A stretch of 64,000 nucleotides of DNA, taken from assembly GCF_021129305.1 (NCBI RefSeq), contig NZ_JAJOMB010000001.1, forward strand, positions 1-64,000, read 5' to 3'. Of this stretch, positions 4,061 through 59,019 are shown piece by piece. Position numbers and translations under genes: made by a program. This stretch comes from Kineosporia babensis (GTDB lineage Bacteria > Actinomycetota > Actinomycetes > Actinomycetales > Kineosporiaceae). The number at the start of each line of letters is the position of its first letter. Within the stretch, counting starts at the first letter, position 1. Below the pieces are notes generated by a model, which worked only from the letters and a program-made list of their open reading frames with translations, was not told where the DNA came from and searched no databases.

Positions 4061-6196
4061 ATGAGGAGAGACATGCCGCGAGGAGATGTTCGCCAGTCCC
4101 GGCGCGCCCGGCGCCATCCGGACGGCGTTTCCGTCGCCGAATCGCAGGCCCGTTACCGGGTCCTGCTCGGCGCGCTCCCGGACGGGGTCCTGCTCCAGGA
4201 CGCCGACGGCACCGTTCTGCTGGCCAACCCCCGGGCCGGGCAGCTGCTCGGCCTGACCCTGCCGGCGGACTCCCGCCCGAGCATCCCGGCCCCGCGGCGC
4301 ACCGACGAGACCGTCACGATCGACCTCACCCAGGCCCGCCCGGCCCTGGTCGCGGAGGTGGACCGGATCAGCGCGGCGGCGGTGCGGACCGGACAGATGC
4401 AGAGTGGCCTGACCGATCCGGTGCTGATCGACGGCCGGCCGCGCCGGCTTCAGGTCACCGCGATCCCGCTGCTCAGCGACGACGGCCGGGCCCGGGCGGT
4501 GGCCAGCTCGATCAGCCCGGCCCCGGTCCTCGACCCGCCGCCGCTACCCGCCGGGGGCGAGGACCTGTTCCGCCGGACCATGCAGCACAGCCCGATCGGG
4601 ATCGCGGTCACCGCGCTGAACGGCCGCTTCCTGCGGGTGAACCGGACGCTGTGCCGGATGCTCGGCTACCGCGCCGACGAGCTGCAGGCCCTGACCCTGG
4701 CCGACGTGGTGCACCCCAAGGACGTGGACGTGCTGCGGGCCCGGCTGGCCGGGCTGGTCAGCGGGGACGAGGACGCGCTGCGGCTGGAGCGACGTTTCGT
4801 CGGGCACGGCGGCATGCATCTGTGGGGCACGCTGGTGCTCACCCCGATCCGTGACTCCGCCTCGCACCCGGTGCAGCTGATCGTCCAGGTCGAGGACCGC
4901 AGCGACCTGTACCAGGCCCAGGGCCTGATGACCCACATGACGCTGCACGACCGGCTGACCGGGCTGCCGAGCCGGCCGCTGGTGCTCGACCGGATCCAGG
5001 CGGCGCTGGACCGGACCCGGCTCAGCGGGCTGCGGGTGGCCGTGCTGCAGTGCGACGTGGACCATTTCCGGGTGGTCAACGACAACGCCGGCTACGAGGA
5101 CGGTGACGAGGTCCTGGCCGAGATCGGCCGGCGGGTGGCCGCCGCGGTACGCCCCGGAGACACCGCCGGACGGCTGGGCGGCGACGAGTTCGTGGTGGTC
5201 TGCGACGACGTCGCCGACGAGGACGAGGCCGGCGTGGTGGCCGACCGGGTGCGCGCAGCCGTGAACGAGCCGCTTGTTCTCGGCGGTCGCACGCTGCGGC
5301 CTACGGTCAGCGTCGGCATCGCCCTGTCCGGCGATCCGATGGGCGATCCGCTCCTGCTCCTTCGGGACGCGGAAATGGCCACCTACCAAGCCAAGAGCCG
5401 GGGTAGGGATCGCTGGGACACGGTAGACAGCTTCCAGCGCAAGGCTGCCACCGAGCGCCTGGACCTGGAGCACCAGCTGCGCGCGGCGATCACCGACGGC
5501 GAGCTGGAACTGCACTTCCAGCCGATCGTGGGCCTGGACGGGCGCGACGTGATCGGCCGGGAGGCGCTGGTGCGCTGGCGGCATCCGGACCGGGGGCTGA
5601 TGCCGCCGATCACCTTCCTGCCGGTGGCCGAAGAGTCCGGGCTGATCGTCGAACTCGGCGCCTGGGTGCTGCGCGATGCCGTGCGGGCCGCCGCCTCCAG
5701 CGCCGATCCGGGGTACGTGGCGGTGAACGTCTCGCCGAACCAGATGATCCGGCCGGGCTTTTCCGACGAGGTGGAGAAGGTGCTGGCCGAATCCGGGCTG
5801 CCGGCCTCGCAGCTGGTGGTGGAGCTGACCGAGTCGGTGATGCTGAGCTCGGCCCCGGCGGCCCGGCAGGAGATCGAGCAGCTGCACAACCTGGGCGTGC
5901 GGATCGTGGTGGACGACTTCGGCACCGGCTTCTCGGCCCTGTCCTACCTGCGGGACCTGCCGGTCTCCGGTATCAAGGTGGACCGCAGCTTCACCTCCGG
6001 CCTGGGCGAGGACCAGCAGTGCGACCGGATCGTGGAGGCGCTGATCGGGCTGGGCAACGGGCTGGGCATCGACGTGATCGTCGAAGGGGTGGAGACCGAG
6101 CAGCAGAGCGCGTGGCTGGCCGGGATCGGGGTGCGGCACGCCCAGGGGTACCTGTTCGGCAAGCCCAGCCCGCGCTACGAACTTCAGCCGGTGTAA
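4061..6196 (+). CDS. PAS-GGDEF-EAL cyclic di-GMP signalling protein
   Basis: A 711-residue protein with no membrane helix. Two PAS-like regions (about residues 30-110 and 170-285) precede a GGDEF domain (GGDEF at 373-377) and an EAL domain (EAL at 501-503). The diguanylate cyclase active site is intact, and an RxxD inhibitory site (R364 to D367) stands five residues before it. The EAL part keeps REALVRWRHP and DDFGTGFSALSYL, so phosphodiesterase activity is also possible. Net direction of activity cannot be read from sequence. ATG 4061 follows GGGAGG closely; ATG 4073, preceded by AGGAG, is an alternative. Its product would be the ligand for the RsiG protein encoded at 27.1-27.7 kb. Confidence 0.92.
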   Translation: MRRDMPRGDVRQSRRARRHPDGVSVAESQARYRVLLGALPDGVLLQDADGTVLLANPRAGQLLGLTLPADSRPSIPAPRRTDETVTIDLTQARPALVAEVDRISAAAVRTGQMQSGLTDPVLIDGRPRRLQVTAIPLLSDDGRARAVASSISPAPVLDPPPLPAGGEDLFRRTMQHSPIGIAVTALNGRFLRVNRTLCRMLGYRADELQALTLADVVHPKDVDVLRARLAGLVSGDEDALRLERRFVGHGGMHLWGTLVLTPIRDSASHPVQLIVQVEDRSDLYQAQGLMTHMTLHDRLTGLPSRPLVLDRIQAALDRTRLSGLRVAVLQCDVDHFRVVNDNAGYEDGDEVLAEIGRRVAAAVRPGDTAGRLGGDEFVVVCDDVADEDEAGVVADRVRAAVNEPLVLGGRTLRPTVSVGIALSGDPMGDPLLLLRDAEMATYQAKSRGRDRWDTVDSFQRKAATERLDLEHQLRAAITDGELELHFQPIVGLDGRDVIGREALVRWRHPDRGLMPPITFLPVAEESGLIVELGAWVLRDAVRAAASSADPGYVAVNVSPNQMIRPGFSDEVEKVLAESGLPASQLVVELTESVMLSSAPAARQEIEQLHNLGVRIVVDDFGTGFSALSYLRDLPVSGIKVDRSFTSGLGEDQQCDRIVEALIGLGNGLGIDVIVEGVETEQQSAWLAGIGVRHAQGYLFGKPSPRYELQPV

Positions 6197-25759: not shown

Positions 25760-26569
25760 GTGACTCCGCCCCGCCGCGGTGCCGTGCAGGGCACCATCAC
25801 CCGGGGCACGACCAACCCCAATCGTCTGCGCAGGGTCGACCGCTGGCTCGCCGGGCCGGCCGCCGCCCGGCTGCGGCAGGCGGCCGATCCGCTGGTGGTG
25901 GACCTGGGGTACGGGGCCAGCCCGATCACGGCGGTGGAGCTGCATCATCGGCTGAGCGTGGTCCGGGCCGACGTCGAGGTGGTCGGCATCGAGATCGACC
26001 CGGCCCGGGTGGCGGTGGCCAAGCCCCTGGAGAAGCCGGGTCTGAGCTTTCGGGTGGGCGGGTTCGAGCTGCCGCTGGACGGACGTCGGCCGGTGATCGT
26101 CCGGGCGTTCAACGTGCTTCGGCAGTACGCGGAGGACGAGGTACCCCCGGCCTGGCAGTTGGTGCAACAGCGGCTGGCCCCGCAGGGGTTGCTGGTCGAC
26201 GGCACGTGCGACGAGATCGGCCGGCGCTCGACGTGGGTGGCGGTCGGCGCGCAAGAAGGGCCGGTCAGCCTGAGCATCTCGCTGCGGCTGGGCGGGATGG
26301 ACAAGCCCTCAGACGTGGCGGAGCGACTGCCGAAGGCCCTGATCCACCGCAACGTGCCTGGTGAGCGGGTGCACGACTACCTGAACGCGCTCGATGCGGC
26401 CTGGGCCCGGAACTCGCCGCTGAGCTCGTTCGGGGCTCGGCAGCGCTGGCTGGCCACGGTGGCGGCGCTGAAGCAGGAGGGCTGGCCGGTGCTGGACACC
26501 TCGGCCCGCTGGCGGCTGGGCGAGATCACCGTGGCCTGGGAGAGCGTCAGGCCTCGAGCAGGATCGTGA
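25760..26569 (+). CDS. Class I SAM-dependent methyltransferase-like protein
   Basis: A 269-residue protein. The SAM-binding glycine loop is [16 protein letters not shown] near residue 47, followed by an acidic residue in [14 protein letters not shown] that would contact the ribose, then [12 protein letters not shown] and [14 protein letters not shown]. The fold is convincing but the substrate is not; similar actinobacterial proteins are annotated only as methyltransferases. The start is GTG 25760, directly after a -10-like box. Its last 23 bases overlap the 3' end of dtd on the other strand. Confidence 0.78.
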
Positions 26570-26972
26570 CCGGCCCGTCGTTGACCAGCTCGACCTGCAT
26601 GTTCGCGCCGAACCGGCCGGTCTCGACCTTCAGCCCGTGACCGCGCACCGCCTCGGCGAGCGCCTCCATCAGCGGTTCGGCCACCGGGCCGGGGGCGGCC
26701 TGGTTCCAGGACGGGCGACGGCCCTTGGCGGTATCCGCGTAGAGGGTGAACTGGCTGATCAGCAGCACTCCGGCGGCGACGTCGACCGCGGCCTTCTCGT
26801 CGTGCAGGATGCGCAGGGTCGCGATCTTCTTGGCGATCGTGGCGACCTGATCCGGCCCGTCGGTGTGGGTGATCCCGACCAGCACGACCAGGCCGGGCCC
26901 GTCGAGCGCGCCGACCACCTCGCCGTCCACGCTGACCCGGCCGGAGGACGCTCGCTGCACCACTGCTCTCAC
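26547..26972 (-). CDS. dtd: D-aminoacyl-tRNA deacylase
   Basis: A 141-residue proofreading enzyme that removes D-amino acids (and glycine from tRNA-Ala) from mischarged tRNA. Family signatures are intact: [15 protein letters not shown] at the start, [20 protein letters not shown] with the active-site SQFTLY, and [11 protein letters not shown] at the end, which contains the Gly-cisPro-type loop region. Length is typical. It is a single gene, convergent with the methyltransferase. Confidence 0.95.
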
Positions 26973-27145: not shown

Positions 27146-27709
27146 TCAGAAGCGGTCGGCCAGGCTCACCTGATCGAGCTGGTAGCGCCGGGCCACCTCG
27201 GCGGTCAGGGTGTCGACCACCTGCTGCACCTGCTTGCGCGAGCGAGAGACCTTGCTCTCGATCCCGACCAGCTTCTCGATCGCCGCGCTCAGCTCGGCGT
27301 CGGGCATGTCCAGGTCGGAGACGCCCACGTCGGAGACTGCACGCTCGGCCTCGCGGCGGTGTTCGCCGACCCGGCTCGGGGTGGCCGCCATGTGCCGGCC
27401 CAGCCCCCGGTCGGTGCGCTTCTCGGCGCCGAGAATGCGCTTGAGCGTCTCGGCGATCGCCTCGTCGGTGCGGTTGCCGAAGACCGGCTGGTCGGAGCCC
27501 TCGCCGCTGCGCCGGTTCTGCTCGGCGCGCAGCAGGTCGATCCGGCCCTGCAGCAGCCGGCGAGCGTAGGAGAGGTCGACCTCTTCCTGGTCGGCCTCGG
27601 CGCGGCGCACCCGGATCTCCTCGAGATCCAGGACGTCGATGCCCTCCAGATAACCGGGAGCGAGCACCCGGTCGATCCGGCGGCGCCCTCCGGGCATGTA
27701 CTCGGCCAT
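27146..27709 (-). CDS. rsiG: RsiG-type cyclic di-GMP-dependent anti-sigma factor
   Basis: A 187-residue helical protein. It contains two exact copies of the motif E(x3)S(x2)R(x3)Q(x3)D, at residues 43-58 (E43, S47, R50, Q54, D58) and 151-166 (E151, S155, R158, Q162, D166). In Streptomyces RsiG this motif, once on each helix of an antiparallel coiled coil, binds a c-di-GMP dimer and lets the protein hold the sigma factor WhiG. Both copies are complete here, so ligand binding is expected. The start is ATG 27709, 4 bases after AGGGAGG. No whiG/fliA is in the window; in a motile-spore genus the partner could control flagella or sporulation (inference). Confidence 0.88.
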   Translation of the reverse strand: MAEYMPGGRRRIDRVLAPGYLEGIDVLDLEEIRVRRAEADQEEVDLSYARRLLQGRIDLLRAEQNRRSGEGSDQPVFGNRTDEAIAETLKRILGAEKRTDRGLGRHMAATPSRVGEHRREAERAVSDVGVSDLDMPDAELSAAIEKLVGIESKVSRSRKQVQQVVDTLTAEVARRYQLDQVSLADRF

Positions 27710-27887: not shown

Positions 27888-28205
27888 TTACCAGCGGCCG
27901 TAGGGCCCGCTGTTGCCGCCGCCGGTGATCGACTTGATCGCCGGGCGCACGTCGGCCAGGTAGACACCGGCGGCCACGAAGGCGATCAGGTTGAACACGT
28001 TGAACGGGTAGCCGACGAAGATCACGCCGATCGCCGTGGCGACACCGAGGATGGCCAGCCAGATCGGCTTGGTCAGCTTGCCCGCCGCGGTGAAGGCGTC
28101 GGTGCGCTGCCGCAACGCGTCGACCAGGGCGAAGGCCATCACGCCGAGAGCCAGGACGCCGATGGTCAGCGACAGCAGGTTCTGAAAACTACCCAGCGCG
28201 CTCAT
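27888..28205 (-). CDS. DUF2516 small membrane protein
   Basis: A 105-residue protein with three hydrophobic helices (LLSLTIGVLALGVMAFALVDAL, IWLAILGVATAIGVIFVGY, VFNLIAFVAAGVYLADV), a pattern matching the DUF2516 family. The last residues are Gly-rich. In mycobacteria a member lies next to hbhA and its HTH gene, as here. No activity is known. The stop at 27888 is followed by 178 bases before rsiG. Confidence 0.85.
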   Translation of the reverse strand: MSALGSFQNLLSLTIGVLALGVMAFALVDALRQRTDAFTAAGKLTKPIWLAILGVATAIGVIFVGYPFNVFNLIAFVAAGVYLADVRPAIKSITGGGNSGPYGRW

Positions 28206-56568: not shown

Positions 56569-58878
56569 TCAGTCTTCTTCGTCTTGCGGTTGGGAGGGAG
56601 TGGCCCCTACCGCGGCCAGAGCGGGGACGTGGTGGGTGGTTGTGCTCTCCCCTGCGGACCGGATGACCGCCCGGGACACGGGACTGGGCGCCGGTGAGGC
56701 TGTCGCGGATGGGGTGGTCTGCGCGGTGGCCGGGGTTGGTTTGGTCTCCGGGGTGGGGGCTGTGGCGCTGGGTCCAGTTACGTCTGGGGACGCCGGCGGT
56801 TCGGCACTCGGGTTGCTCGCCGACGTGGTGGTCTCCTCGGCGATGGATGCCTCATCGGACGCCTGGGCCGGGTTCAGGCCGTCCAGGTAGGAGCTCTTCG
56901 CCCCGGGCTTCTGGGCCTTGGGTTGCTGGGCCTTGGGTTGCCTGGCTGCGGGCTTCTGGGCTGCGGGCTTCTCTGTTCCGGGCCTTCGGGCTGTGTGCTC
57001 TTGGGTGCTGGTGCTCTGGGCCTTGCTCTTGGGCGTGCCGGTGCTGCGCCGGGTCGGCCTGGACTCCGTGCGCTGCGACGGGATCACCGCGCTCGACGCC
57101 ATCGTGGCGGTACCCGGTGTGGCCGTAGCCCGCCTGGTCGTGGTGGTGGCCGACTTGGTCTTGGTTGCTGCCGAGGTGGTCCGGGCCGGGCTGGCGCTCT
57201 TGGCCGGGTCCTTGGTTCCGGATCGGGTTGATGTGGTGCGGCGGGTGCTCTGCTTTGAGGCCGGCCGGGTCGAGGCGCTCTTCTTGGCTGCGCCGCGAGT
57301 GGCGGGACGCGTGGTTGTCGCCTTCTTCGTGACTGACGCAGCACTGCGCGTCCGTTGGGACGCCGAGCCGGAAGAGGCGGTCTTCGCCGAGGCCACTCTG
57401 GCCGGTGGGCTCGTACCCGCGGCTGTCTTCGTGGCCGTGCGTGAAGATGCGGTCTTCTTGGCCGCCGGGCGCGAACCGGACGCCTTCTTCGCGGCGGTGC
57501 GCGAGGACGCGGTCTTCTTGGCCGCCGGGCGTGAGCTGGGCGCCTTCTTCGTGGCCGGGCGCGTGCTGGTGGTCTTCTTCGCGGCTGTGCGGGGCGAACT
57601 GGTCTTCTTGGCCGCCGTTTTCTTGGTGGTGGTCTTCGCTGCCGAGCGGACGCCGGAGGCGGTCCTGCTCGCCGTGGTCTTAGCGGCCGACGAGGACGTC
57701 TTTCGCGCCGCAGTTTTCGCTGCCGGACGAGAGCCGGCGGTCTTCTTAGCGGCCGGACGCGTGGTGACGCTCTTTCGGGCTGTGGTCTTCTTCGCAGCCG
57801 TGGTGGTGCGGGCGGTGGTCGTCCTGGCCGCTGTCTTCTTGGCCGCCGCTCGAGTGGCAGTCTTCTTTGCGGTGGCGGTGCGCGTGGTCGTCTTCGCGGC
57901 CGAGCGAGCCGAAGTCTTCTTGGCGGCCGCACGGGTGGAGGCAGACTTCGTCGCCGGACGCGTCGAAGCCGCCTTCTTGGCCGCCGGGCGGGTGGCAGTC
58001 TTCTTCGCTGTAGCGGCGCGCGTGGTCGTCTTCGCAGCGGTCTTGGTCGCCGGACGCGTTGTCGCCTTCTTCGCGGTGGCAGTACGCGTGGTCGCCTTGG
58101 CAGCAGTCTTGGTCGCCGAACGCGTTGCCGCCTTCTTCGCGGTGGCAGTACGCGTGGTCGTCTTCGCGGCAGTCTTGGTCGCCGAACCCGTCGTCGCCTT
58201 CTTCGCGGTGGCGCCCTTCTTCGCAGCCGTAACCTTCTGAGCAACAGCGGCCTTCCGGACCGCGGGCGCCTTCTTGGCCGCGGCCGTCTTCCGCGTGGTC
58301 GTGCTCTTCTGCGCAGTAGCAGCGCTCGCCGGGGACGCAGTCCTGCCCGCCCGGGTAGAGGCAGTCTTGGCCGCAGCAGAAGCAGACTTGTTGGCCGAAG
58401 CCACGCTTCGCTTGGCCGCAGCAGTCCCAGCCGCCCGAGTACCAACCCGTGCAGCCGCAGTCTTCCCCGCGCGGGCCGAAGCCGTCTTCGCAGCGCCCGA
58501 GGCCGACCGGTTCGCCGAAGCCACGCTGCGCTCAACGGTAGTGGCCCCGGCAACACCCGAAGCCGCGCGCCGGGAAGCAGTCTTGGCCGCGGTCGTGGCG
58601 GACTTGTTGGCCGAAGCCACCTTCCGCGCCGTGGCCGCGCTCGCGGCCGGCTTGGTGGTGGACCGGGTGGTCGCGGTCTTGCGGGCCCGCGTGGTGGCGG
58701 TCTTGGCCGCGGCCGAGGCACTGCGGTTCGCCGAGGCGATGCTGCGCGCGGATCCGGTCTTGGTGGCCGCCGCCGAGGTGGACTTACGGGCAGGGCGAGC
58801 AGCAGTTGCCGTCGCAACCGGCCGGGCGACCCGGTCGCCGGCCGGCTGCGTCGCCGCGGTGGTGTTGTTCGAGGGCAC
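56569..58878 (-). CDS. Giant histone H1-like Lys/Ala/Thr-rich protein
   Basis: A 769-residue protein. The first ~190 residues repeat a ~45-residue pattern (SVASANKSASAAAKTAS and close variants). Residues about 190-560 are hundreds of AAKK, TTTRTATAKK and RPAAKKTA units, like the tails of eukaryotic H1 and of actinobacterial HupS/Hbs2. The last ~150 residues switch to acidic, Pro/Ser/Thr-rich sequence. No folded domain is recognised. It would bind DNA, polyphosphate or other polyanions (inference). GTG 58878 has AGGAGG 5 bases upstream. It is a single gene with its own terminator. Confidence 0.75.
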   Translation of the reverse strand: MPSNNTTAATQPAGDRVARPVATATAARPARKSTSAAATKTGSARSIASANRSASAAAKTATTRARKTATTRSTTKPAASAATARKVASANKSATTAAKTASRRAASGVAGATTVERSVASANRSASGAAKTASARAGKTAAARVGTRAAGTAAAKRSVASANKSASAAAKTASTRAGRTASPASAATAQKSTTTRKTAAAKKAPAVRKAAVAQKVTAAKKGATAKKATTGSATKTAAKTTTRTATAKKAATRSATKTAAKATTRTATAKKATTRPATKTAAKTTTRAATAKKTATRPAAKKAASTRPATKSASTRAAAKKTSARSAAKTTTRTATAKKTATRAAAKKTAARTTTARTTTAAKKTTARKSVTTRPAAKKTAGSRPAAKTAARKTSSSAAKTTASRTASGVRSAAKTTTKKTAAKKTSSPRTAAKKTTSTRPATKKAPSSRPAAKKTASSRTAAKKASGSRPAAKKTASSRTATKTAAGTSPPARVASAKTASSGSASQRTRSAASVTKKATTTRPATRGAAKKSASTRPASKQSTRRTTSTRSGTKDPAKSASPARTTSAATKTKSATTTTRRATATPGTATMASSAVIPSQRTESRPTRRSTGTPKSKAQSTSTQEHTARRPGTEKPAAQKPAARQPKAQQPKAQKPGAKSSYLDGLNPAQASDEASIAEETTTSASNPSAEPPASPDVTGPSATAPTPETKPTPATAQTTPSATASPAPSPVSRAVIRSAGESTTTHHVPALAAVGATPSQPQDEED

Positions 58879-59019
58879 TGTCGCCTCCTGGGTGAGATCC
58901 GGAATACGTCCGGATTCTGTGTGGCTTTCGCGACAACAGGTCGCGCCACTACATCGGCGGCTTGACAACCGACTTGACCCGTTCGGCCGAGGTTTCCTGG
59001 CCAGTGACCGGTAGACCGG

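Follow-up and report, generated by a model that had tools for sequence, protein, structure and literature searches.

A twin-motif RsiG anti-sigma factor and its predicted partner WhiG in the zoospore former Kineosporia

The window analysed here is a stretch of 64,000 nucleotides of Kineosporia babensis (contig NZ_JAJOMB010000001.1, positions 1 to 64,000). Its minus strand carries rsiG at 27146..27709, a gene encoding a twin-motif RsiG anti-sigma factor of 187 amino acid residues. The ATG start codon at 27709 is backed by comparison with relatives, the stop codon is at 27146, and the plus-strand reading of these positions is not the gene. A preliminary description of this DNA had placed an RsiG with two exact motifs here; the coordinates hold and the strand is minus. 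The protein matched the Pfam family PF22802 in two stretches with E=6e-26 and 90 bits (cut-off 27). The nearest solved sequence was the RsiG of Streptomyces venezuelae (6pfj, E=2e-22). The fold was modelled with AlphaFold2 from 18 sequences, giving a pLDDT of 71, which corresponds to moderate confidence. When the model was compared to the PDB with Foldseek, the RsiG chains of 6pfv were the best and sole matches below 0.001 (E=3e-6), and the modelled protein would have the RsiG-type coiled-coil fold.

Both c-di-GMP motifs are exact instances of E(X)3S(X)2R(X)3Q(X)3D. Motif 1 (EVDLSYARRLLQGRID, residues 43-58, 27536..27583, minus strand) lies in a predicted helix of residues 29-68, and motif 2 (ESKVSRSRKQVQQVVD, residues 151-166, 27212..27259, minus strand) in a predicted helix of residues 137-177, so that each long predicted helix bears one exact motif and a single chain bears two. 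A single-motif, homodimeric RsiG of the Rubrobacter type was ruled out because both motifs are present. Shuffling the composition of RsiG 200,000 times gave at least one motif in 136 cases and two motifs in none, and a chance origin of the twin motifs was therefore rejected. In all 12 Kineosporiaceae genomes that bear rsiG, neither motif departs from its five defining residues, while the positions between them vary. One RsiG was found when the Kineosporia genome was searched, 88% identical to the RsiG of Kineosporia rhizophila and K. mesophila. Judged by its sequence, the Kineosporia gene is a genuine, intact and ordinary twin-motif rsiG in an informative host. Elsewhere, in RsiG proteins of the Quadrisphaera type (loci L017-L020), the final Asp of motif 2 is changed to Ser or Gly, and the WhiG there reads K/G/R where readable at the positions described below. 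One of these records (L020) is titled Streptomyces sp. NP160, but its RsiG and neighbourhood are Quadrisphaera-like and the name looks wrong.

Upstream of rsiG lies a conserved DUF2516 gene (27888..28205, minus strand; PF10724, E=2e-30), and downstream dtd for D-aminoacyl-tRNA deacylase (26547..26972, minus strand; PF02580, E=2e-46). Synteny identifies both as conserved neighbours, and rsiG is found between them in most Kineosporiaceae loci. The preliminary description had named DUF2516 correctly, whereas its hbhA-like neighbour had no Pfam or NCBIfam match. A stretch of this neighbourhood with Fur, YgfZ and rsiG also occurs in Sciscionella, and horizontal transfer of rsiG was for this reason judged unlikely. 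The gene would have been inherited vertically and would be functional. RsiG was present in 12 of the 13 Kineosporiaceae genomes; in the remaining one, an 88%-complete assembly, WhiG was not seen either.

The window also contains a gene for a PAS-GGDEF-EAL enzyme of 711 residues on the plus strand (4061..6196; PF00990, PF00563, PF00989) with intact GGDEF and EALVR motifs. Its presence in the same window had been pointed out before and is correct, but as a link to rsiG it is weak evidence, since the two genes are 21 kb apart among different neighbours and such enzymes are numerous in zoospore formers, as the surplus in a 2023 survey of actinobacterial flagella indicates (PMC10746217). Beyond the common window, a link to rsiG was not evident. 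RmdB, a GGDEF-EAL protein of S. venezuelae, and RsiG compete for WhiG (PMC13232838). RmdB has eight membrane helices before its GGDEF-EAL part, whereas the Kineosporia protein carries PAS domains and is predicted to lack membrane helices (no 19-residue window above a hydropathy of 1.6). An RmdB-type WhiG antagonist was ruled out for this enzyme on these grounds.

Kineosporia forms zoospores, according to work cited in PMC10746217, and flagellin, FlhA, FliN, CheA, FliS and FliW are encoded in a large flagellar cluster of its genome. The motile-spore actinobacterium of the preliminary description is thus borne out. In the 5' leader of fliC, 12 of the 13 family genomes conserve a hairpin CCGGTCCACGGATGGATCGG whose loop contains or adjoins GGA (L003, 2425-2444 in the own genome). 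Since fliW (PF02623) and a CsrA-like reading frame are located about 4-5 kb from this hairpin, CsrA-FliW control of flagellin translation is possible.

A single clear WhiG is encoded in the Kineosporia genome, on contig C5. It scored 283 bits with TIGR02479 and 431 bits with the NCBIfam WhiG equivalog NF004935 (cut-off 343), and aligned to the WhiG of the solved RsiG complex with 2.7e-117. The proposal that c-di-GMP gates a sigma factor here had been made dependent on a WhiG/FliA homologue in the genome, and it stands on this point because WhiG is present. A second sigma factor of the WhiG/FliA family is encoded on contig C1, adjoining flagellin, and is FliA. In the S. venezuelae complex, WhiG contacts c-di-GMP via K57, G61 and R62 (PMC8325347). 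These residues are kept in all 12 Kineosporiaceae WhiGs, including that of Kineosporia. At the same positions FliA reads G/R/E in 13 of 13 Kineosporiaceae and G/x/E in the genomes sampled from other families, and the K/G/R contact residues were found in none of the flagellar-cluster FliA proteins of the 13 family members. Since WhiG keeps the contact residues and FliA has lost all three, the predicted partner of RsiG is WhiG rather than the flagellar sigma factor.

Across the order, the WhiG proteins sampled from families f1, f8, f14 and f17 read K/G/R where readable, those from f9 A/N-G-R and those from f10 T/S/N-T/S-R. The distant genome G137 of f10 has a WhiG with S/S/R, so that K57 and G61 are lost. 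Its THAP4, YgfZ, DUF2516 and dtd genes follow the same order as in the window, the gap between DUF2516 and dtd is 33 bp, and rsiG was found neither in this gap nor elsewhere in the 62% of the sequence that was read. This pattern, from one genome read to 62%, fits a joint loss of RsiG and the WhiG contact residues.

The exact Streptomyces WhiG promoter TAAA-N14-16-GCCGATAA occurred in none of the 13 Kineosporiaceae genomes. A related sigma-28-type signature, TCAA-N15/16-GCCGAT, was found before flagellar, chemotaxis and pilus genes. Among the 13 family genomes, such a site stands before fliC in 12 (with TCAT in three) and before pilA in all 13, there with 0-2 mismatches; the −10 element of the pilA site is degenerate in genome G000 (TTCGATAT). 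In three Kineosporia species, sites with at most one mismatch lie ahead of flgN, fliN, flhA, cheA, pilB and pilM, the flhA site falling within a mis-called reading frame in one of these species. A site was also found before pilT. No clean site was found at the flgB operon. Just 3' of the pilA promoter (L129-L134), a block GTCATCGAGTCGCGCCAG is near-invariant in the genus, and GTCATC is kept in most of the family.

Genome-wide, the own genome contains 27 occurrences of TCAA-N15/16-GCCGATR and 13 of the reversed control, and the excess was larger in most relatives; 2 of 104 background genes had a site within 150 bp. The enrichment is partly circular, since the consensus was learned from the genomes and then searched in them, and a binomial P was set aside because the operon heads had been picked after the hits were known. 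These promoters are better supported by their conservation from species to species. The relaxed pattern TNAA-N14-16-GCCGATAW gave few sites, of which the one shared by several members of the genus lies ahead of an S9-type peptidase gene. Sites within coding sequence, for example on contigs C11 and C19, were discounted, their conservation being probably that of the codons, and a site on contig C9, whose spacer is almost identical among genomes, was dropped for want of a clear target gene (a nearby tRNA does not overlap). TCAA-N15-GCCGATAT is conserved in five genus members about 130 bp before a gene for an S9-type peptidase (L125 at 41063-41089 of contig C28 in G000; also L087, L099, L102 and L106), possibly another sigma-28 target. 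Upstream of rsiG, whiG, fliA and the GGDEF-EAL gene no good sigma-28 site was found, and we therefore do not claim a feedback loop. Taken together, the identity of RsiG, the presence of WhiG with its contact residues, their loss in FliA and the promoters are supported by sequence comparison.

A further candidate lies in the window itself. The gene at 56569..58878 on the minus strand encodes a Lys/Ala/Thr-rich basic protein of 769 residues with a histone-H1-like composition (20% K+R, 2% D+E) and no Pfam match; orthologues were recognised by position in five relatives. The genome pattern search placed a sigma-28-type promoter candidate TCAA-N15-GCCGATG before it (58952..58977, minus strand), and at the same place the five relatives have TAAA or TTAA with GCCGAT or GTCGAT. 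The gene may be a sporulation-type target of WhiG, or of WhiG and FliA. An inverted repeat GGCTTGTCAAGCC was observed within the spacer in most of the five relatives.

From these data we infer a switch in which a c-di-GMP dimer would be held by an antiparallel coiled coil of the two RsiG helices. At high c-di-GMP, RsiG would sequester the single WhiG. When c-di-GMP falls, WhiG would be freed to read sigma-28-type promoters with TCAA or TAAA, a spacer of 15 or 16 and GCCGAT. Its likeliest targets would be the type IV pilus genes; those for flagella and chemotaxis would probably be shared with, or taken over by, the dedicated RsiG-blind FliA. We regard this scheme as a whole as fairly probable. 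The pili are named as the likeliest output because WhiG is present in pilA-bearing genomes that have no visible FliA, because one of these (G136) retains a site TCAA-N16-GACGAT before pilA, and because the RsiG-WhiG switch was co-opted for type IV pili in Rubrobacter (PMC8325347). Among 20 sampled pilA-bearing genomes of the order, WhiG was found in all 20, and FliA was not seen in five. The WhiG-only genomes G137 and G072 have no sigma-28 site before pilA, and WhiG control of pili is therefore not universal. Any flagellar control must run via WhiG, since FliA is devoid of the c-di-GMP contact residues. In Kineosporia, RsiG thus probably gates spore pilus genes and possibly flagellar genes, flagella being a possible output that WhiG has in common with FliA. 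The earlier suggestion that RsiG could govern flagella rather than sporulation is very improbable as direct gating; gating via WhiG is possible, with the pilus genes as an at least equal target.

Other explanations were weighed against this scheme. RsiG and WhiG could act as in Streptomyces on sporulation genes only, with flagella and pili read by FliA alone. The Kineosporia WhiG is very close to that of Streptomyces, the reference list of PMC10746217 includes work on spore formation by Kineosporia, and the site before the H1-like gene has in five relatives the Streptomyces-type TAAA (or TTAA) −35 element, unlike the TCAA of flagellar and pilus genes. However, pilA-bearing genomes without FliA still have WhiG, the pilA site is kept in G136, and the Rubrobacter switch has been linked with type IV pili (PMC8325347), which makes a restriction to sporulation genes unlikely. 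Direct control of the flagellar FliA by RsiG, with c-di-GMP gating flagella, would agree with FliA being of the same sigma family and with the resemblance of the fliC promoter to the pilus promoters, but the replacement of all three contact residues throughout the family and in other families sampled makes it very improbable. That RsiG is a relic, or keeps its motifs for a different c-di-GMP function, is hardly to be expected, for although the loss of the last Asp of motif 2 in Quadrisphaera indicates that RsiG can drift, no motif residue is changed in Kineosporiaceae and rsiG occurs alongside a contact-competent WhiG.

The proposed RsiG-WhiG switch resembles that of S. venezuelae (6pfj, 6pfv) in the twin motifs, the length, the fold and the conserved WhiG partner. 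It differs in that Kineosporia possesses a second sigma factor, of the FliA type, as well as flagella and type IV pili, and lacks an exact Streptomyces-type WhiG promoter. With the (RsiG)2-(c-di-GMP)2-WhiG complex of Rubrobacter radiotolerans (7lq4) it has the motif and the probable type IV pilus link in common, but the Rubrobacter RsiG is a single-motif homodimer, whereas Kineosporia has both motifs in one chain. Actinoplanes missouriensis is likewise a zoospore former, in which sigma-28-type control extends to the genes for flagella and type IV pili, according to PMC8325347; there WhiG is present and RsiG absent (PMC8325347), whereas Kineosporia has both. The GGDEF-EAL protein in the window recalls the RmdB-WhiG antagonism of S. 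venezuelae (PMC13232838), with the difference in architecture given above.

The preliminary description had suggested that c-di-GMP gating of WhiG/FliA sigma factors is widespread. The scattered distribution of RsiG through the Actinobacteria agrees with this, but it was published in PNAS in 2021 (PMC8325347) and is not new. Published work ties RsiG-WhiG to spores in the non-motile Streptomyces and to pili in the unicellular Rubrobacter. New is a zoospore former that carries RsiG, WhiG and FliA together, to which we add the split of WhiG and FliA by their contact residues, the rsiG gap in the conserved locus of G137 and the common sigma-28 signature over pilus, flagellar and chemotaxis genes. 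Since RsiG, WhiG, a separate FliA, flagella and pili are all present, Kineosporia could show which output is gated by c-di-GMP. For the zoospore family we tentatively put forward that c-di-GMP, through RsiG-WhiG, may be a master switch for the motility and attachment apparatus of the spore: type IV pili, and flagella via common sigma-28 promoters, would stay silent as long as c-di-GMP is high, and the RsiG-blind FliA would form a second tier. The 2023 flagella survey reports the surplus of c-di-GMP enzymes and mentions neither RsiG nor WhiG (PMC10746217). If the master-switch reading is true, the surplus c-di-GMP enzymes of zoospore formers would be tied to a defined receptor.
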